From contig JAEKNW010000309.1 of NCBI GenBank assembly GCA_016838885.1, positions 1 through 33,166 of the forward strand: 33,166 nucleotides of DNA, written 5' to 3'. Below the pieces are notes generated by a model. It was given only the letters and a program-made list of their open reading frames with translations, was not told the DNA's origin and did no database searches. Made by a program: the position numbers and the translations under genes. Below are positions 6,566-29,439 of the stretch, piece by piece (the stretch's first letter is position 1; every line of letters begins with the position of its first letter). This DNA comes from Candidatus Cloacimonadota bacterium (GTDB taxonomy: Bacteria > Cloacimonadota > Cloacimonadia > Cloacimonadales > JAFGVF01).

Positions 6566-9496
6566 ATGAAGAAAAAGACAATAATCATCGAATCAGTTAT
6601 ACTGATTATCTCAATTACTCTTTTGGTGTTTTTCTTAGGGTTGCCCCAAATGTTAGATCTTAATAAAAGAGCTAACAAACAGAAAAATATTTCTCAACTC
6701 ACTGAGTTGAGTATTTCAACAAACAAATTTTTAGATAAGTATTTATACAGCATGACTGCTGACCTTTCCAGTATTAAAGAAAAAATGGAATATACCCAGA
6801 GACTAAACGTTCCAGGAGATAGTAAGTATCAATACTTAATTTATGGTGGAATTAAGGATGCTGATTTAAGATATGTTGTATCCTACGACTTATTTGATTT
6901 AATGAATCAAAGTAAAAAGAATGATAGGACATTTATTAATTCAGTAAATGCTTATGTAATTTCAGCAAAAGAGAGAATGTTGAATAGTCCTGATTCAGAA
7001 AAATACATAAACTATATCGGATATTTAGATATTTTAACTTCCAAACTCAATGATGAAAGCTATTTCAGAAGAGCTCAATACACAAAAGATATAGTTAATC
7101 CGAAATTCAACACTAATAACGTCTCAAATTTTGGTTCCTTTGCCCAAGGTCTAGTAGGTTCAAGTTTATTCAAAGATAATAAACTTCCAGTTGCTATAAT
7201 CATCTACCTATCATACATTAATCAAGTAGATTCAGCTAATGCTACTGAAGAAACATTTGATACTTTTTATAATACCTTCACCAAGCTTACAAGTTTTAGT
7301 GGATATTATTTATCAGTGGCAGACAACACTATTGCAGATGGAATGAAACCAAACGATGTTAAAGAGATGTTTAATGATGAATTTAGAAAATTCTACTTTG
7401 ATTCTATTCAATATCCTGACAAGCTAAACAAGGGAATTGTAGCAATCGGTACCAACGCTGTAGTAGATCCAACTAACAGGCTTACAAACAACTTCCTTAA
7501 TGATTTAGTAGCTAGCTCCTATCAGAAGGAAGTTAATCAAGTAATAGATGATTTATTAAGCCAATATCCAGGAGATCATGAAGGTTTTGCTAGAGCTCTC
7601 AGAATTAAAATTAATGAGTATAAAGACAACGATATTAACAGACAAATAATTGATATCTATGAATCTGTGTTCAACTATATGCAATATCAAGAATATCTTC
7701 ACAAATCGATTAATTCTTTAAAAGAAGTTACTGTAAATTCTGCAGTGGAAAGCAAGTTTAAAGAATTCTTCCACAGCTATATCTTAAAATATGATAAAGC
7801 CTATATTCTCAATGATTTAGCCAATAGAGTAAATAGTATAGTTGTCGACCCAAATTCCAAACAGTCGAGTCTGATGAGAAATGTTAGTAATAAATTTGAG
7901 AGAGACTTACTTAACGATTTTAAAAAAGAGATAAAATCTCAACCTACTTTCTTATCTAATTACTATGCTTCTAAAGATTATTCAGATTTAATAAAAACCT
8001 CGAAACTACAATTTATTGAAGAGAAGACATCTCTATTTGTTGCTGAAGTTAAATCTGAAAGACTAACTATCGATTATCTCAAAAACAATATTGCTAAAAA
8101 CAAAATTATTGAAGATTCAGAATTTCAGCAGGAATTACAAATTAAAAAAACTCAATGGGAAAATGATTATTCATATATCCAATACTTAGCTTCTTTGGAT
8201 AATCCTTCAGCTAACAAGGGCAGTATTTCGCAAGCTCTTCTTGCTGATTCAATTAATTTCAAAAAAGTCAATAAAAATCAAATTGATAGGTTAACTTCAG
8301 CAGTAAATGATACAAAAGAAAAATATTTCACAGGAAGTTATGATAGAAATAGAAAATTTGATACTTACGCTGAATTCTGTGCTACAACTATAGCCTCAAC
8401 AGTAAGTGAAGATAGAATGGCAGAATTTATGCAATACCAAGAAGCTATTCTTAGAATTGTTTCTGATTTTATAGCTAATAATGACTATCCTGAATTTGCA
8501 GAAGAGTTAGGTCAAAACGTAAGAAACGAGTTAAACGACTTATATAAAGAGCAAACTCTTGCTTATGCTAGTCTATCCCCAGAGTATCTAGAAAAGATTA
8601 ATACTCTTAACTCAAACCTAACTAATTATGATAATTATACTAAGTTTGCTACCACAAACAGAATAGCAAGAAATAAGCTTCTTTCTAAAGACATTGTGGA
8701 TGTTTTAAAAGATGTTTCAATTAATCCTGAAGGGCTTATTCATCATTACAATTATTATCTCTTTTATGCTAAAGATATTGTTAATAAAGATAAATATTAT
8801 GCGTCATTTGGTAACACTCAGTTAGAAATTGCCAAAAAACGCTATATTGATGATAAAATTTCCGGAGAAGCCACTGACTGGACACAATTAGAGAAAGAGA
8901 TTGCGGCTATAGTTAAGAATGATAATCAAGAAACAAGAGCCCAATTCACTAATACTATGAAGTTAGCTGTTAAAAATTATAAAGCATTTAGAAATGACAA
9001 TTATAAATATGAAAATGCTTTCAATTTTAACGGTTTGATTTCTGATTTAGCAAGAGTTGAAAATAATATCAAACTCTATCGTGGTCCCATTGATTACCCA
9101 TTCTACGATAAAGATGAATACTACTTAATCTATGGAAGATTCATTGAAGATGGTAATAAAAAACTTGGTATCTCTGTAGTTACTTACACTGATATTCATA
9201 ATTTTCCTCAAGCCAATGCAGTTGTTGTCAGAAATATTGCTTCTTCCAATGAAGATACAAAGGCGATAACAGTTAATCTCCAAGGAAAACTTGATAACTT
9301 AATTTCCCAATATCAACAAGAGATTGAAAAGTTAAAGGTCGATAGAGAAGAGTTCAGCAATATTAAAGTTATTCATAATAATGACCCTAATTTTAAAATT
9401 ACAACTCAATCAGCCCAAGCTAAGAAAATTATAAGAGATAGATTTGCTATAGCTCTCGAAAAAATGCTTGAAGAATTTGTTAGAGAAATATACTAA
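6566..9496 (+). CDS. Large membrane-anchored protein of unknown function
   Basis: I do not recognise this protein of 976 residues. An N-terminal transmembrane helix (about 6-27) follows the positive start MKKK, so the remaining roughly 950 residues should lie outside the cytoplasm, anchored rather than released. The rest looks mainly helical and is rich in Lys, Asn, Asp and Tyr. It has one Cys (in EFCATTIAS) and no visible nucleotide-binding, metal or protease motif. A short beta-rich part occurs near 875-920 (YYLIYGRFIEDGNKKLGISVVTYTD), and the C-terminus (about 925-976) is charged helix. The start ATG has GGAG upstream. It is transcribed alone between two terminators. Scaffold, surface or envelope roles are all possible and none is shown. 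Confidence 0.8.
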   Translation: MKKKTIIIESVILIISITLLVFFLGLPQMLDLNKRANKQKNISQLTELSISTNKFLDKYLYSMTADLSSIKEKMEYTQRLNVPGDSKYQYLIYGGIKDADLRYVVSYDLFDLMNQSKKNDRTFINSVNAYVISAKERMLNSPDSEKYINYIGYLDILTSKLNDESYFRRAQYTKDIVNPKFNTNNVSNFGSFAQGLVGSSLFKDNKLPVAIIIYLSYINQVDSANATEETFDTFYNTFTKLTSFSGYYLSVADNTIADGMKPNDVKEMFNDEFRKFYFDSIQYPDKLNKGIVAIGTNAVVDPTNRLTNNFLNDLVASSYQKEVNQVIDDLLSQYPGDHEGFARALRIKINEYKDNDINRQIIDIYESVFNYMQYQEYLHKSINSLKEVTVNSAVESKFKEFFHSYILKYDKAYILNDLANRVNSIVVDPNSKQSSLMRNVSNKFERDLLNDFKKEIKSQPTFLSNYYASKDYSDLIKTSKLQFIEEKTSLFVAEVKSERLTIDYLKNNIAKNKIIEDSEFQQELQIKKTQWENDYSYIQYLASLDNPSANKGSISQALLADSINFKKVNKNQIDRLTSAVNDTKEKYFTGSYDRNRKFDTYAEFCATTIASTVSEDRMAEFMQYQEAILRIVSDFIANNDYPEFAEELGQNVRNELNDLYKEQTLAYASLSPEYLEKINTLNSNLTNYDNYTKFATTNRIARNKLLSKDIVDVLKDVSINPEGLIHHYNYYLFYAKDIVNKDKYYASFGNTQLEIAKKRYIDDKISGEATDWTQLEKEIAAIVKNDNQETRAQFTNTMKLAVKNYKAFRNDNYKYENAFNFNGLISDLARVENNIKLYRGPIDYPFYDKDEYYLIYGRFIEDGNKKLGISVVTYTDIHNFPQANAVVVRNIASSNEDTKAITVNLQGKLDNLISQYQQEIEKLKVDREEFSNIKVIHNNDPNFKITTQSAQAKKIIRDRFAIALEKMLEEFVREIY

Positions 9497-10944: not shown

Positions 10945-11008
10945 GAAAAGAATCTAGCACTCTTCATCAAAGTTCTACTGCATCATTCGGGTTTAACCCG
11001 AATGATGC
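10945..11008. repeat. Dispersed palindromic repeat, copy R3 (right arm plus inverted end)
   Basis: GAAAAGAATCTAGCACTCTTC and CTACTGCATCATTCGGGTT match the right arm of R1 almost base for base. The terminal block is then repeated immediately in inverse orientation (AACCCGAATGATGC, 10995-11008) after a single T. This makes a perfect 14-bp inverted repeat. It looks like two repeat ends joined head to head, or an internally deleted copy. Confidence 0.75.
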
Positions 11009-11017
11009 TGATTTTTT
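10980..11017 (+). terminator. folC terminator built from repeat R3
   Basis: GCATCATTCGGGTT (10980-10993) and AACCCGAATGATGC (10995-11008) form a perfect 14-bp stem, and TGATTTTTTT follows on the plus strand. It ends folC transcription 51 bases after the stop. The same bases encode, on the minus strand, the last residues and stop codon of the converging secreted-protein gene. Confidence 0.75.
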
Positions 11018-12980
11018 TAATTACTTCTTTATTATCAGATTTAAGTTTAACAAAGTATATTCCATTAGGTGTATTCTTAGGTAATTTTACTTGGTGTTCA
11101 GGATTTAGGACTTTCTCTTTATGAATTAATTGACCTTTTAGATTATATATTTTAACTTGTGTTTCTCCTCTTATATCTCCTACTTGGAAACTACCATTTC
11201 TAACAGGATTAGGAAATATTACAGGTTCATGAACTACTTGACTAAACTCCTCATTACTAGTCGGTGATGAGGAGATAACAATTCTATCAATAACTAACAT
11301 GAGGGTTTGAATTCCGCATGATTCTAACCAAATATTTGTTATTCTATCTTGGCTATTTTCGCAAGTATGAGAAAAGTTAAGATGGGTCATCTCACCCGGA
11401 ATTTCAATATAATTACCTTCTTGAAAATAAATTATATCCTCTTGATTATTATTATAAACCACTCCACATTTAACTCTTTCCATTCCCCAAGAAGTGTTCA
11501 AGCTTTTTAGGTAAATATCAATCCCTACTTGATCGGCTTGAAAAGAAGGTGATATGAGAATATCTGAAGTCGGAGGGGTAATACTGGAAAAACTAACTAA
11601 GCATTTATCTCCAGTAATATTTAGTTCTAAGGGAGGGGTAACTGCCCCAGGTTCGAATACCACAAAACCTGCTTCTGACCCCGCATTAGGATAAAAATAA
11701 TTACTAAGGATATAAGTAGCACTTCCATCATTATCGATGTTTATCCAGTCTCCTAAATCACTAGTAAAGGACTCATAATTTTCAAATTCCTCATCGATGA
11801 TTATATTTTCAACTGCTCCAATTTCAATATTGTATATCTCTGTTTCCAGATAACTTCCATCAATATAATAAAACTTTACTTGGTAATCATAACTTTCTCC
11901 AACACAGACCTGATTGTCTAGGAATGAATTTTCATATTGATTAACTATTTCCTCATTGTTTCTATAAACAACATAAGGATATTGGTTATCATAAATTGAG
12001 TTCCATTCTAAAGAGACAGAATAAGTGTCATTTTCTAGAGAAGCAAAATATAAATCATGTTCATCATCGGATGTTTCAAAACTAAATTCATCACTATCAT
12101 AAATATCAACACCATTATTATAATGTACTTGCCACTCATAAGGTGTGTTTGGCGCAAAAGGCAGTTGCGGATAAATCTCATACACGTAATCATGGAGATG
12201 CTGATAATTGTCTAAAATATCAATAGTGAATACATTTTCTGGGCAGGCGAAACTGATACTTGTGTTGTTTGGTTGTAGAACATTGATCTGTAGTCCTGTA
12301 CTTGTCTCAATATCAATAGCATTATCAGTAGGATAGATTGCTTGAGGATAATTTTGATCTATTGCTATATCAAAAATAGTATTAGGTAACCAGTTCCGGA
12401 TAAAGATTGGTGTTACTAAATTTCCAGGATCTAAAGGATTTTCCAGATCAACAAAACACATTGAAGTGTTACCTGAAGTAGAGAAGGCCAGAAAATTATC
12501 AGAATTCAAGCCACTATTAGTGTGATTTTCCATGAAAAAAACAATTAGATTTCCATTTCCTGAATATGAATAAGCTTGAGTCAAATCGATAGTCATCCAA
12601 CCTGATCCCGTACTATTTGATGCTTGAAAATTATCAGCAGTAAGATTCCCAGAATAGCATAGCTCTAATTGGTTGAGAGCAATGAAATCTTCTTCATTCT
12701 GATAAAAGTTTGTCGGAGCTTCACCCATCATAAGAGTTACATCATTGATAATAGTCTCAGGATTAGTAGTGGTAAATTGATACTGAAAAGAAAGCTGTGT
12801 TATAGTCCCATTATATGGAAAATAGTTGCTATCATAGATTAATTGAGAGCCACTATGGTTATAAAATGGGTCACAAGGAAGATGCTGATTATGCTCAGTA
12901 CCATTACCTACATTCAGTTGATAACAATTAACTATACTTATCATAACTAAAAACCATGCTGTTAAAATTGATATTTTCAT
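10983..12980 (-). CDS. Secreted beta-rich protein with Por/T9SS-type sorting tail
   Basis: Predicted extracellular or surface protein (665 residues). Residues 1-20 form a signal peptide. Residues about 22-205 form a beta-sandwich opening with NGTEHNQHLPCDPFYNHSGS, a module I associate with Cloacimonadota/Bacteroidota surface proteins. Ig/FN3-like parts follow (EWQVHYNNGVDIYDSDEFSF; VSLEWNSI...YPYVVYRNNEEIV). Near 388-575 lies a carbohydrate-binding-like sandwich. The C-terminal 75 residues are a sorting domain: FPNPVRNGSFQV, VKIYNLKGQLI, NGIYFVKLKSDN, KKISII. Such tails direct type IX secretion in Bacteroidota; whether that system exists here cannot be seen. No enzyme motif is evident. The last few codons (RVKPE, stop) are made by repeat R3. 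GGAG precedes the start. Confidence 0.8.
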   Translation of the reverse strand: MKISILTAWFLVMISIVNCYQLNVGNGTEHNQHLPCDPFYNHSGSQLIYDSNYFPYNGTITQLSFQYQFTTTNPETIINDVTLMMGEAPTNFYQNEEDFIALNQLELCYSGNLTADNFQASNSTGSGWMTIDLTQAYSYSGNGNLIVFFMENHTNSGLNSDNFLAFSTSGNTSMCFVDLENPLDPGNLVTPIFIRNWLPNTIFDIAIDQNYPQAIYPTDNAIDIETSTGLQINVLQPNNTSISFACPENVFTIDILDNYQHLHDYVYEIYPQLPFAPNTPYEWQVHYNNGVDIYDSDEFSFETSDDEHDLYFASLENDTYSVSLEWNSIYDNQYPYVVYRNNEEIVNQYENSFLDNQVCVGESYDYQVKFYYIDGSYLETEIYNIEIGAVENIIIDEEFENYESFTSDLGDWINIDNDGSATYILSNYFYPNAGSEAGFVVFEPGAVTPPLELNITGDKCLVSFSSITPPTSDILISPSFQADQVGIDIYLKSLNTSWGMERVKCGVVYNNNQEDIIYFQEGNYIEIPGEMTHLNFSHTCENSQDRITNIWLESCGIQTLMLVIDRIVISSSPTSNEEFSQVVHEPVIFPNPVRNGSFQVGDIRGETQVKIYNLKGQLIHKEKVLNPEHQVKLPKNTPNGIYFVKLKSDNKEVIKKISIIRVKPE

Positions 12981-13169: not shown

Positions 13170-13334
13170 AACCCAAATAATGCAGTAGATCTTTGAGAAT
13201 AGCACTATATTCTTTTGCAAAAGTAACTTCCATAATTCCCCCGAATATATATATTATATGCGTCCGAATTCTGTAAGTTATTTTGCTAAAAGAATCTGCA
13301 CTCTTCTCAAAAGCTCTACTGCATCATTCGGGTT
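13170..13334. repeat. Dispersed palindromic repeat, copy R4 (full length, MITE-like)
   Basis: This is a 165-base near-palindrome. The left end AACCCAAATAATGCAGTAGA is matched by the reverse complement of the right end, AACCCGAATGATGCAGTAGA. Complementarity continues inward through TTTGAGAA/TTTTGAGAA, TTCTTTTGCAAAAGTAACTT and TTATTTTGCTAAAAGAA to a central AT-only loop (GAATATATATATTATATG, about 13243-13260) that also occurs in R1. There is no open reading frame. Long terminal inverted repeats, dispersal and lack of coding fit a miniature inverted-repeat element. No clear target-site duplication is visible. Confidence 0.8.
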
Positions 13335-17131: not shown

Positions 17132-17187
17132 AACCCAAATAATGCAGTAGAGCTTTAGAGAAGAGTGCTACTGCACCATTTCGGGTT
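17132..17187. repeat. Dispersed palindromic repeat, copy R5 (short form)
   Basis: The left arm AACCCAAATAATGCAGTAGA and the right arm GTGCTACTGCACCATTTCGGGTT are imperfect reverse complements joined by GCTTTAGAGAAGA. The long AT loop is absent, as in R2. The right end touches the stop codon of the minus-strand hybrid sensor gene, so the hairpin lies immediately after that gene in its 3' untranslated region. Confidence 0.8.
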
Positions 17188-20100
17188 TAAACCTTACTAT
17201 TCTTGTATTCGTTAGCGATTTCGATTAACAAAGCAATATTTGCTATGTTAAGCACATCAGGCAATTCATCATTAATTAAATCATAAACGCCCATGTAATC
17301 ACTATTTTGGTAATTATCTTTGATAAAATAGTTGTTGGTAATTATGTAAGGTTGAGAGATATTCTTCATTTCTCGAACAGCTTTAAGAGTCTGAAGATCA
17401 TTGATGCTACTTACTGATAAATCTATGAAAATAACATCATAAGTGTTTTTATCAATTAGCTCTTTCATATCTTGTTCAGTAGTACAAATCTCGATTTTTT
17501 GATTTAGAATCTCCAAAATCTTATATAAAACAAAATGACATATATTATTGTAATTTACAATTAATGTTCTTAGTGGATAGAGATTTTTAATTCTATTCCG
17601 AGTAAATTCACAAACATCATTTGGTAGAATAAATTTATCAATATTGTTCTCACTATCGATAACAGAGAGGTCATCATTAACTTCAAACTCAGTAAATTTT
17701 TTGATTAAGAAGGTAATTTTATTACAATTCTGAGATTCATCTCCAAACTCAATCCTTCCCCCTAGAAGATCTAGTAAGTTGTTTATGATCACACTACTAA
17801 ATCTAAAATCACAAATATTTTCTAGTTTATGCAAAACCTCACGCTTTTCAGCCTTGACTTCTGTGTATCTTCCAAGACTTTCTGATGATAAGTTACTTGC
17901 CTGAATGGTGAATTTTAAGAATTTATCATCTTCGTCATAAATATCAATGATTATTGGATTTAAAGCCTTTTCCTTGGCTAACTTAAGTATTAAAATTTCT
18001 AATAACTTTGTTAGCTTATCAACTGCTAAAAATTCGATTTCCTTGGCTTTGTTACCAATATGGTAGAAGATTTTAGCAACATTTAAAGAATTTATCAATA
18101 CTTGAGAAGTATATGTAACAACTTCTGATAATTGTGCTTTTTGGATTACTAAGTCATTGGCTTGATCACCCGTCTGATAATTAGTAATTTCATGAACAAT
18201 AAATAACAATTGACCTGTTAAATCTCTTAAAATATCCAAATACTCATCAATGGTTGAAGAATCTTCAGTATGCTTGATTAAATCAATTATCCCGTAAAGT
18301 GAGTTTATTGGATTAATCAAATCTTGGCCAAAGCTTTTGTAAAAACTCAACTTAGCCTCAGTAAAAGCTTTCTGCTCTTCTAAAAGGATTGTCATTTTAT
18401 TCTGTACTGCATTTTTGGCAGTTATATCTGTTATTGAAGAGATAATTTCCTTAGTCTCTGGAACCAAAACTACATTTAGCATAACATCTAAAACATAACC
18501 TTTTTTGTTAACTAATTTAGTTTCATAATTATCTGTAGAATCAATTTTGCTTTGATATCTTAATTCTCGATTATTAGCCATCCGGCTGACATGAGAAGAA
18601 TCAACAAATGTCTGCCAATCCATCTTGTTTACGACTTCTTCTTTGCTATAACCACTCAATTCCTCAAATTTCTTATTCACCATTGTTACAATACCATTCT
18701 CAGCAACAGTAACTAGTGCTATACCACTGTTTAGGTAAACAGATCGATATCTATTTTCTTCTTTTTCTAACTGCTCAAATAGATGCTGCTTTTCTGTTAC
18801 ATTCATCCCTGTCAAAAGATAGTATAATCTATCTTTGGCACGAATTGATGTAACTACACCCTCTACAATGATCTTCTTACCACTATTAGTTATTAAATTG
18901 AACTGTCTTCGTAAATCTTCTTTAGTGGATTTTTCATTATCAACATAAGTCTTAATCAGGACTAAATCACCTGCTTCTTCAAAAAAGTCCCAGAGAAATT
19001 GCTCCCTGTGTTGAATATTAACTAACTCTAAATTAGTAATAGCATAATTATTTGCTCTACTGATTACACCATTTTTATCAAAGACTATCATCAGAGATTC
19101 TTCATGATCTTGTACTGTACGAATGAAGTTTTTCTCATCTTCTAATTCATTAGTTCTTTCTTGAACAATCTCTTCCAAGTTATCAGTCAGGTTTATTAAA
19201 GATTCATTTGATTTTATCAGTTCGTTCTTTAGCTTATTCTTTCTCATCAATGTTATTATTAACCATAAGATTATCGAAGCAAGGAATAGAACAATTAGAG
19301 AAAATCTAATTATCAGAACTTTGTTCTTCGACCAATAGGATTCTTCATAGTTTATAATCACTGAATCTTCAGGTAATTGATTAAGCTTTATCCCCCACTT
19401 ATCCAAAGCTTTTTTATCAAAGTAGTAGGTATTTGGACTAACTTCTATTATTGGTAATTTTTCTGCAGGGGCTCCTTCCAAGATCTCTATTGCCAACTTT
19501 GCTGCACTCTGGCCTTGCAAAGTACCACTTGAAAGATATCCTCCAACCGCACCATAGCCTAAGCTAAAATCTATCGAAACATAAACAGGTACATTTGCAG
19601 ACTCAGTAACCAATAGAATACTTTCATCATATTCTAAGAATTGGCCCAGATTATCTTTAAAAAATATACTATATAAAACTACTGTGTTTTGATTTAAATT
19701 TCTTAATCTTTCCTTCAAATCCCCAACAGAAATATCTTCTAATATTTCTATCTCAATATCTTCTTTAAAGTCTCTAATATCAGCCTTTATGTTAATTCTA
19801 TTCTGCTCACCTGTAGGGGTCAGCTCATTCAAAACAATAATTTTTTCTACATTCTTATGAATCTTCTTGATGAGTTGGAAATTCTCTAAAGAGACGATTT
19901 TCTCGCTTACCCCAGTAACATTCTTCATATTACCTAATTGGGAGGGATGAAAATAGTTTACACCACAAAAAACAACCGGAGCACCTTTAAAAACTGTTTC
20001 ATGAAGATCTTTTACTATATCAAAAGCATTATTATCTGATGTGATTATTACATCAAAATTACTATCCTTATATTTATATTCCAACATCATTTTAAGATTA

Positions 20101-20336
20101 TTTCTGAAAGATTCAGAATTAAACCTTTTAGTATCTAGATATTCAGTCTTAATTCTAACATTACTATTATACTCTTTTAGTGTGGATTTTATTGCAGAAT
20201 CTATATTGTCTGACCAGAGAAAACCAGAATGATAGGACTGAATAACTAATACCTGAGGTATCTTATAGCTTATCTCTGTGGCATTTACGATGATAATTGC
20301 CATAATAAAAAAAGTAATTAATAATATTTTCTTCAT
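17187..20336 (-). CDS. Membrane hybrid sensor with degenerate kinase and receiver domains
   Basis: Signal peptide (1-19), then a periplasmic ABC_sub_bind-like sensor (about 26-320: VLVIQSYHSGF, DVIITSDNNAFD, FCGVNYFHP). A transmembrane helix spans 341-363, coiled coil about 366-402, and two PAS domains about 403-515 and 526-640. A HisKA-like helix pair (661-720) reads FGQDLINPINSLYGI where active kinases read SHEIRTPxNAIIGF, so the phosphoacceptor His is Gln671. The ATPase-like domain (about 765-880) keeps the LLGGRIEF strand but lacks the N-box Asn and the G-boxes. A receiver-like domain (about 922-1035) has Asn928-Tyr929 where the acidic pair belongs; Asp972 is kept, but the switch Lys is Asn. 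I infer a signalling protein without phosphotransfer. GAGG precedes the start; the stop codon abuts R5. Confidence 0.85.
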   Translation of the reverse strand: MKKILLITFFIMAIIIVNATEISYKIPQVLVIQSYHSGFLWSDNIDSAIKSTLKEYNSNVRIKTEYLDTKRFNSESFRNNLKMMLEYKYKDSNFDVIITSDNNAFDIVKDLHETVFKGAPVVFCGVNYFHPSQLGNMKNVTGVSEKIVSLENFQLIKKIHKNVEKIIVLNELTPTGEQNRINIKADIRDFKEDIEIEILEDISVGDLKERLRNLNQNTVVLYSIFFKDNLGQFLEYDESILLVTESANVPVYVSIDFSLGYGAVGGYLSSGTLQGQSAAKLAIEILEGAPAEKLPIIEVSPNTYYFDKKALDKWGIKLNQLPEDSVIINYEESYWSKNKVLIIRFSLIVLFLASIILWLIITLMRKNKLKNELIKSNESLINLTDNLEEIVQERTNELEDEKNFIRTVQDHEESLMIVFDKNGVISRANNYAITNLELVNIQHREQFLWDFFEEAGDLVLIKTYVDNEKSTKEDLRRQFNLITNSGKKIIVEGVVTSIRAKDRLYYLLTGMNVTEKQHLFEQLEKEENRYRSVYLNSGIALVTVAENGIVTMVNKKFEELSGYSKEEVVNKMDWQTFVDSSHVSRMANNRELRYQSKIDSTDNYETKLVNKKGYVLDVMLNVVLVPETKEIISSITDITAKNAVQNKMTILLEEQKAFTEAKLSFYKSFGQDLINPINSLYGIIDLIKHTEDSSTIDEYLDILRDLTGQLLFIVHEITNYQTGDQANDLVIQKAQLSEVVTYTSQVLINSLNVAKIFYHIGNKAKEIEFLAVDKLTKLLEILILKLAKEKALNPIIIDIYDEDDKFLKFTIQASNLSSESLGRYTEVKAEKREVLHKLENICDFRFSSVIINNLLDLLGGRIEFGDESQNCNKITFLIKKFTEFEVNDDLSVIDSENNIDKFILPNDVCEFTRNRIKNLYPLRTLIVNYNNICHFVLYKILEILNQKIEICTTEQDMKELIDKNTYDVIFIDLSVSSINDLQTLKAVREMKNISQPYIITNNYFIKDNYQNSDYMGVYDLINDELPDVLNIANIALLIEIANEYKNSKV

Positions 20337-28260: not shown

Positions 28261-29439
28261 TTATAAGTTAGTAGATGCCAAATAAAGAAGCCCTTTACCA
28301 GAAAGTATAATATTATCAGCCTCACTAGTGATGAAGAGAGTTTGCCCTTGCTTTAACACCTGAGCTTCATCAGCAGTTGTTACTTCTACTTCTCCATTTA
28401 TAACCAACAACATTGTTGGATTACCGTTATTAAAAGTACTTTTTCCAGCCAGATTAATTCTCTTTAAACAAAATTCATTAATTGGGAATTGATAATTGAT
28501 AATTTCTTGATTAGAATCATAAGCTTGAATATCAGCTTTCTTCATATCCCATTTTAGAACGCTAGTCAATTCATTAACATCAATGTTTTTAGAAGTCAAT
28601 CCTCCTCTTAAAACATTATCCGAGTTAGCCATAATTTCGACACCAGTTCCGGACAGGTAAGCATGTAAAACTCCTGCGTCCAGAAAAATTGCTTGGCCAG
28701 GATGTAAGACAAACGTATTAAGGAATAGTGGAGATATCACACCAATATCATTAGGGTGTTCAATTAAGAGTTTAGTAATCCAACCTCTTATAAAATCATC
28801 ACTTAAGAGATGAAAATTCTTTACTGTTTTTTCTATAATCTGTTGTTTTTTTTCCACAGGTGCGGTCAAGAGTTCAGAAAAAAGGATCTTCCAATTTTCC
28901 GGATTTGGTTCTTCCCCAAATTCTGTGAAGTTATCTAGAAAAGGTAGAATATTGAGCTGGGTAAAAAACTCAATAATCTCCTTGGCAGGCCTAAATCCAC
29001 ACATAGCATGGAATTCAGTTAAAGCACAGATAAGCTCAGGTTTGTGATTATCATCCTTATAGTTTCTGATGAAATCAGTTAATTGAATACCCAGCTGATT
29101 CTCATGAGCAAATCCTCTTTTAGCTTCTTCTAAATTTGGATGGGCTTGAATAGATAGAGGTTTTTTAGCACTTAGAATTTTAAAAAGATAAGGTAACTTG
29201 TGATTATATTGAGAAGCCACTTTATCTCCTAAAAACTCCTTGGGATTCTTGGCAATTGCCATGTCAAGATTTTGGTCAACTTCGGGTAAGTAAGAAGGTG
29301 CTTTATCATGAGCACTCATCCATAATTCAGCCCAAGGACGATCATCGTTCTTTTCCACCTGTAACAAATTAGCAATATAATCAGAACTTCCCCATTCATA
29401 CTTCTGTATTTGGTTTTGCATCCGATAGAGTTTTTTCAT
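28261..29439 (-). CDS. manA: Mannose-6-phosphate isomerase, class I
   Basis: This enzyme interconverts mannose 6-phosphate and fructose 6-phosphate, linking glycolysis to mannose-containing polymers. It is a type I phosphomannose isomerase of 392 residues, the normal length. Zinc ligands are seen as Q98 and H100 in SIQAHPN, E135 in HKPELICAL, and a His in FLDAGVLHAYLSGTGVEIM. The active-site Arg segment NSDNVLRGGLTSKNID follows. The N-terminus QNQIQKYEWGSSDYI is also diagnostic. It is the last gene of a five-gene minus-strand operon, 11 bases after the Nif3-like gene, with AAGGATG as ribosome site, and ends at a bidirectional terminator. Confidence 0.95.
   Translation of the reverse strand: MKKLYRMQNQIQKYEWGSSDYIANLLQVEKNDDRPWAELWMSAHDKAPSYLPEVDQNLDMAIAKNPKEFLGDKVASQYNHKLPYLFKILSAKKPLSIQAHPNLEEAKRGFAHENQLGIQLTDFIRNYKDDNHKPELICALTEFHAMCGFRPAKEIIEFFTQLNILPFLDNFTEFGEEPNPENWKILFSELLTAPVEKKQQIIEKTVKNFHLLSDDFIRGWITKLLIEHPNDIGVISPLFLNTFVLHPGQAIFLDAGVLHAYLSGTGVEIMANSDNVLRGGLTSKNIDVNELTSVLKWDMKKADIQAYDSNQEIINYQFPINEFCLKRINLAGKSTFNNGNPTMLLVINGEVEVTTADEAQVLKQGQTLFITSEADNIILSGKGLLYLASTNL

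Follow-up and report, generated by a model that had tools for sequence, protein, structure and literature searches.

In Coxiella burnetii, the elements QMITE1 and QMITE2 are found at gene 3' ends, where they provide C-terminal residues and/or the stop codon for 11 genes, according to the excerpted parts of the study that describes them (PMC5896051). Inverted pairs of DNA uptake sequences in Neisseria are given as Rho-independent terminators in part of another report (PMC2397512), and the Rickettsia palindromic elements, Correia/NEMIS and ERIC appear in a section of a third as small non-autonomous repeats fused in frame to genes (PMC2229807). Here we describe a junction of two convergent genes, folC and a gene encoding a predicted secreted protein, at which partial copies of an abundant repeat lie between the two, coding for the C-terminus and stop of the secreted protein and forming, on the other strand, the stem of a likely terminator for folC. 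The junction lies in a window of 33,166 nt, which is the whole stretch of DNA that was analysed, and its features are collected in Table 1.

Table 1. Features of the folC junction and of its surroundings, in window coordinates
Feature	Position	Strand	Support or remark
folC (dihydrofolate/folylpolyglutamate synthase family), 424 aa	9655..10929	+	TIGR01499 346.9 bits, E 1.9e-103
Copy A, final 47 nt (model positions 116-162) of the 162-nt MITE; left part absent	10945..10991	+	nhmmer E 2e-11
Perfect palindrome, predicted RNA hairpin on the 3' side of folC	10980..11008	+	-22.0 kcal/mol, z -7.45
665-aa predicted secreted protein with C-terminal Por_Secre_tail sorting domain	10983..12980	-	PF18962 4.8e-11, TIGR04183 8.7e-11
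Stop codon (TGA) of the 665-aa ORF, within copy A	10983..10985	-	
Codons S-I-I-R-V-K-P-E	10986..11009	-	All but the first Ser base in repeat-matching DNA
TTTAA, 5-bp target-site sequence common to both facing ends, palindrome centre	10992..10996	.	Family 5-bp flanks
Copy B, second element end in inverted orientation, 12-nt stub CCCGAATGATGC	10997..11008	-	Element end match
T7 tract, antisense of part of AAA AAA ATC (Lys-Lys-Ile)	11012..11018	+	3 nt (TGA) behind the stem
Complete MITE copy upstream of the 665-aa gene	13172..13332	+	nhmmer E 3.3e-45; flanks TTCAA / TTCGA

A palindrome made of two element ends

The stop codon of folC, which faces the 665-aa gene, lies 50 nt before a perfect 14-bp inverted repeat with a 1-nt centre, GCATCATTCGGGTT-T-AACCCGAATGATGC (full letters GCATCATTCGGGTTTAACCCGAATGATGC), which is followed by TGA (11009-11011) and by TTTTTTT. 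The plus-strand RNA is predicted to fold into 13 pairs with a 3-nt loop, and none of 200 shuffles folded as well; the minus-strand RNA folds equally well but has no T run. Both arms match the end pattern CCCRAATRRTGCAGTAGA of one repeat family, in agreement with a first-pass annotation of the locus that had read the palindrome as built from two repeat-family ends. Copy A contributes its end as the left arm and copy B its stub as the right arm, and the arms are identical over 12 of 12 nt. Where that annotation spoke of a single mobile repeat, the site consists instead of 47 nt from copy A and 12 nt from copy B, with the TTTAA target site between them. Copy A is 94-98% identical to many other copies over about 51 nt; since its left part is missing, its own target-site duplication is not comparable. 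Beyond the 12-nt stub of copy B no further element sequence was found. The T run is host coding sequence of the sorting tail, not repeat DNA, and belongs to the codons AAA AAA ATC of the facing gene. The terminator-like arrangement is a repeat-made stem followed by a coding-made T tract.

As a candidate intrinsic terminator, the site has 13 pairs, seven of them G-C, and a T7 tract, but a gap of 3 nt separates the stem from the T run and may weaken termination. We regard the palindrome and T7 as a plausible predicted intrinsic terminator for folC. The palindrome is the longest terminator-like site between positions 9000 and 14000; that scan returned four sites against 2.0 +/- 1.8 in shuffles, so that by itself it proves little.

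The sorting tail of the facing protein

The Por_Secre_tail match of the 665-aa protein spans residues 588-659 and all 75 profile columns with 43.2 bits (cut-off 27), and both PF18962 and TIGR04183 are above cut-off at its C-terminus. The ORF ends in KKISIIRVKPE followed by TGA, and the repeat-matching DNA starts within the Ser codon, with eight codons and the stop inside it. The palindrome therefore does code for the last residues and the stop of the opposing gene (SIIRVKPE-TGA), as had been proposed, and from the position of the Ser codon SIIR may itself be repeat-derived.

We surveyed the sorting tails of the window's genome (G000, a fragmented assembly of 3.34 Mb in 350 contigs) by reading 93 Por_Secre_tail matches above the Pfam cut-off to their stop, leaving out 16 of 109 matches, all below that cut-off. 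In most tails (81 of 93) the stop comes two residues after profile column 75, and K is the last residue in 88 of 93. The focal tail ends six residues past column 75, the largest value of the 93, the next being five (L099). It has R in the slot of the canonical basic last residue and then continues with VKPE instead of ending there. Because R occupies the slot of the usual final K, the overshoot by register is four residues; the earlier claim of a tail reaching beyond its usual end stands (six against two residues past column 75), while its estimate of about five added residues has to be lowered to four (VKPE).

In the excerpted part of a study of such tails, histidine-tag extension left secretion intact in PorU, PorZ and PPAD, and RgpB was inactivated by the loss of two end residues (PMC11285876). 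Since the tag-extended tails described there are still secreted, VKPE is probably harmless. By analogy, the focal tail would tolerate residues behind its last tail residue and is probably still functional.

Two further observations were made on the sorting-tail genes of this genome. Directly behind the stop, the genes at L086, L090, L095, L097, L106, L113, L116, L117, L125, L128 and L134 have a stretch of DNA in common (TAGTACTGGGAACGCTTGCATCTTGCAGGCATC...), and those at L070, L076, L082, L089, L126, L127, L136 and L141 a second one (TAGTATCTTGCTTCGCAAGAATGAAAAATG...); in many sorting-tail genes the tail and its 3' flank look as if they had been copied or homogenised as one cassette. The last codons of the 93 tails contain runs of at least seven A in 15 cases and of at least six A in 23. 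The focal junction suggests that sorting tails, with their frequent Lys-Lys A runs, are predisposed to become terminators of facing genes once a palindrome has landed there.

The same gene pair in relatives without the repeat

In two genomes of the same family, G001 (C185) and G002 (C127), folC likewise faces a sorting-tail gene, with a 3-bp gap between the two genes in the former and an 8-bp overlap in the latter, and no match to the element was found in either genome. The tails end in IKKFIYLK (G001) and VQKFIYFK (G002). A comparison with loci lacking the repeat had been suggested in the first-pass annotation, with identical terminal residues at such loci named as counter-evidence; the ends KKFIYLK and QKFIYFK carry no extra residues, and no such identity is seen.

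The G001 protein is 28% identical to the focal protein in the C-terminal part and 25% in the N-terminal part, and a 134-aa tail fragment from G002 is 48.5% identical to the G001 protein. In the window's genome the G001 protein matches a paralogue on C2 best, the focal gene coming sixth, and no sorting-tail neighbour was seen within 1.5 kb around folC in nine other relatives; orthology is thus argued chiefly from the common location next to folC. A protein scan of the genome contigs found no same-genus orthologue of the 665-aa protein. We infer orthology from position beside folC and from similarity over most of the length (25-28%), rather than from reciprocal best hits.

The repeat family is a MITE with IS1380-type ends

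A 72-base repeat query gave at least 71 matches in the window's genome, with 40 of 334 initial candidates scored, and the end pattern, with at most one mismatch, matched 277 + 291 = 568 times in the 3.34 Mb, the reversed control giving none. The family is about 162 bp long. Complete copies usually measure 161-162 nt and have long imperfect inverted repeats: they match the element on both strands, the reverse matches being about 70-78% identical over most of the length. Of 40 complete copies, 23 carry the same 5 bp on either side, against 8.9 +/- 2.3 with shuffled partners (0 of 5000 shuffles reach 23); in an earlier set of 14 copies, six did so (shuffled mean 3.1, maximum 7). This excess over the shuffles delimits the element as CCC...GGG with a 5-bp target-site duplication, and most insertion sites resemble TTWAA. 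In a 430-kb sample (the window and 20 stretches), one of 50 merged copies is fully contained in an ORF of 100 aa or more, and on entering the element end each of the three frames runs into a stop after no more than about 25 nt. Being short, non-coding and present in high copy number, with terminal inverted repeats and a target-site duplication, the element is a MITE. Rfam gave no match in the window, and a search of the literature on Cloacimonadota MITEs and on target-site duplications of Bacteroidales MITEs found no published description of the repeat, which is a weak negative.

The 23-base end was found in six Cloacimonadota contigs among the eight matches listed, and one of the eight listed contigs (L253) holds a full-length relative of the element. 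At L254, L255 and L257 (CSSed10_348R2) the 23-base end starts repeats with a quite different body, TTCCGGA-CG-TGAATTGGCTGCG..., which suggests that several MITE families may have one set of ends in common. Also present are very short complete copies (22-32 nt) with the two element ends fused (L246:10164-10195, and L219 and L229 beside facing sites); those of 22 nt apparently formed by deletion between TGCA motifs.

In a contig from a MAG labelled Balneolia, a transposon about 1.6 kb long (L256:1314-2908) carries the 18-bp ends of the MITE, with 0 and 1 mismatch, on either side of a 484-aa ORF, and is flanked by ATAAA / TTAAA. The ORF product matches DDE_Tnp_1_4 (PF13701, E 1.1e-26), which we take to be the family covering IS1380 transposases, and the transposon is apparently autonomous. 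An apparently autonomous relative with the same ends thus exists, but in another MAG and not in the window's genome, where searches of the fragmented assembly for PF13701, PF01609 and relatives of the L256 transposase found no transposase, so that the MITE looks orphaned in this assembly. A transposase in the same genome is not strictly required of a MITE.

Facing ends and the origin of the junction

The pattern ATTYGGG-N5-CCCRAAT occurs at 36 places in the genome (control 4), of which 22 were examined and 21 kept, the site at window position 28903 being left out as chance-like. Each of the 21 sites has a longer copy on one side and a piece of 6-54 nt on the other. In 17 of the 21 the piece and its neighbour have opposite end types, so that the orientation is mostly tandem (two-sided binomial p 0.007); in four, including the focal site, the types agree. 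By script, the partner is a complete tiny copy in five of the 21 (L004, L095, L219, L222 and L229), and by eye those at L127 and L223 also look like complete small copies, from which it follows that elements do insert beside each other's target site. End stubs across target sites are ordinary debris of this MITE family.

Two simpler accounts of the facing pieces were discarded. They are not all truncated ends, since some of the 21 partners are complete though very short (22-78 nt among the matches found). Nor do they stem from circularly permuted insertion, the copies at L028, L219, L220 and L223 (aligned length 161) being complete at the far end; these also have matching 5-bp flanks.

On balance we favour, with moderate confidence, a reading in which the focal site is the debris of two adjacent IS1380-type MITE copies and serves the ends of both facing genes. 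Two copies would have landed next to each other at the convergent junction, one of them using, or having in common, the TTTAA target site beside the other, and later deletions would have trimmed copy A to 47 nt and copy B to 12 nt, the two remnants facing across TTTAA. The minus-strand gene for a type IX-like cargo protein would now run through B, TTTAA and the edge of A, with B encoding S-I-I-R, which fills the slot of the normal last tail residues, and TTTAA and A adding V-K-P-E and the TGA. Read on the plus strand, the palindrome would probably be an intrinsic terminator for folC, with T7, the antisense of the tail's conserved Lys-Lys codons, starting 3 nt behind it.

Less probable, though a serious contender, is that debris of this same origin has no function either as hairpin or as extension, folC being terminated elsewhere or Rho-dependently and the added residues being merely harmless. 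The relatives manage without the palindrome, their genes abutting or overlapping, and the stem and T run are 3 nt apart. Accidental arrangements are moreover to be expected from so abundant a family. Among 44 oriented readings of facing ends, no site but the focal one combined a stem of 7 bp or more with at least six T in the next 10 nt. What argues for a function is the strength of this terminator-like site, a 13-pair stem (-22 kcal/mol) with T7, 50 nt behind the folC stop.

The focal pair is of the same end type, unlike most facing pairs, which speaks against the favoured reading. In an alternative that we consider unlikely, copy A alone would have inserted, S-I-I would be native, and a template switch of the quasi-palindrome kind would have copied the end of A to the far side of the target site, with 6 nt gained and the palindrome perfected, so that the protein gained RVKPE behind a native KKISII. 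We keep this alternative because SII fits the canonical tail register, SIIR standing exactly where a tail normally ends; the identity of the arms over 12 of 12 nt is also as it would predict, and the same-type pairs at L221 and L225 have perfect arms of 11-12 nt too. It needs, however, a native seed of about 6 nt present by chance at the right distance, and the 17 of 21 comparable pieces that are of the opposite end type are not copies of their neighbour. Since pieces of second copies are common and recur across the genome, the palindrome is better explained by a second, truncated copy than by a template switch from the end of A.

REP-type palindromes can protect mRNA 3' ends from decay, and a hairpin that mainly protected one or both facing mRNAs rather than terminating would agree with the equally good fold on both strands and the lack of a T run on the minus strand, but the T tract in about the right place on the plus strand makes this improbable.

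The element at other gene ends

The focal gene is one of several that end in the element. In the 430-kb sample, 9 of 314 ORFs have their stop in a copy or in its 5-bp flank. The element-coded C-termini there are NPNGAVEL (twice), NPNDAVEL, TRMM and the focal KPE, and they correspond to three reading frames into the element end. L232 holds a second gene that reads through a facing stub, a target site and an element end, and among the 93 tails those at L052, L064, L065 and L100 have an element-like end directly behind TAAA, the target site carrying the stop. Elsewhere in the window, the minus-strand gene at 17187-20336 (1049 aa) has its TAA stop (17187-17189) in the TTTAAA flank of another repeat copy.

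It is tempting, if rather doubtful, to see the MITE family as a running source of gene ends, through stop-bearing targets, three-frame stops and facing stubs that turn into hairpins, with a terminator gained in one step. The element ends would provide stops in all three frames and fixed short tails (PNDAVEL, RMM, PE), and the near-TTWAA target would often hold a TAA stop. Copies inserting beside each other's target sites would leave facing stubs able to form hairpins; where such a stub met a sorting-tail gene, the Lys-Lys codons would give an antisense T tract and the convergent neighbour would gain an intrinsic terminator.

Comparison with known systems

The junction is a neat but fairly ordinary case of mobile DNA remodelling gene ends. 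It illustrates how abundant mobile repeats may reshape two convergent genes together, setting the stop and the tail of one protein and, likely, the point where transcription of the other gene ends. The focal protein is also a naturally occurring case of a type IX-like sorting signal lengthened at its C-terminus. With the IS1380-family element at L256, the window element has in common 18-bp ends that are identical bar one mismatch and 5-bp TTWAA-like flanks; it differs in being about 162 nt long, in coding for no protein and in that no transposase was found in its genome.

As far as the excerpted account of the Coxiella QMITEs goes (PMC5896051), MITE ends supply C-terminal residues or stops there as well, with little harm inferred; those elements act by one insertion per 3' end, belong to another family and use another target site, whereas here two facing partial copies are involved. 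Unlike in the Coxiella cases described in those parts of the study, the focal bases also form a stem behind the opposing gene. The Neisseria uptake pairs, in the portion of the report cited above, resemble the focal site in that two close inverted copies of an abundant repeat form a terminator-type stem, here a predicted one. Those sequences are 10-12 nt long and serve transformation, while the focal arms are the ends of transposons that flank a target site; the focal T tract, unlike what that portion describes, comes from the codons of the facing gene. With the Rickettsia palindromic elements, Correia/NEMIS and ERIC, the likeness lies in a small non-autonomous repeat being in frame with a gene; several repeats of this type carry open frames according to the section cited (PMC2229807), whereas here all three frames stop within about 25 nt of the element end. 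Element-coded C-termini and repeat-pair terminators are already known from these systems; what the present locus adds is a T tract derived from coding sequence and the joining of the two themes at one site.
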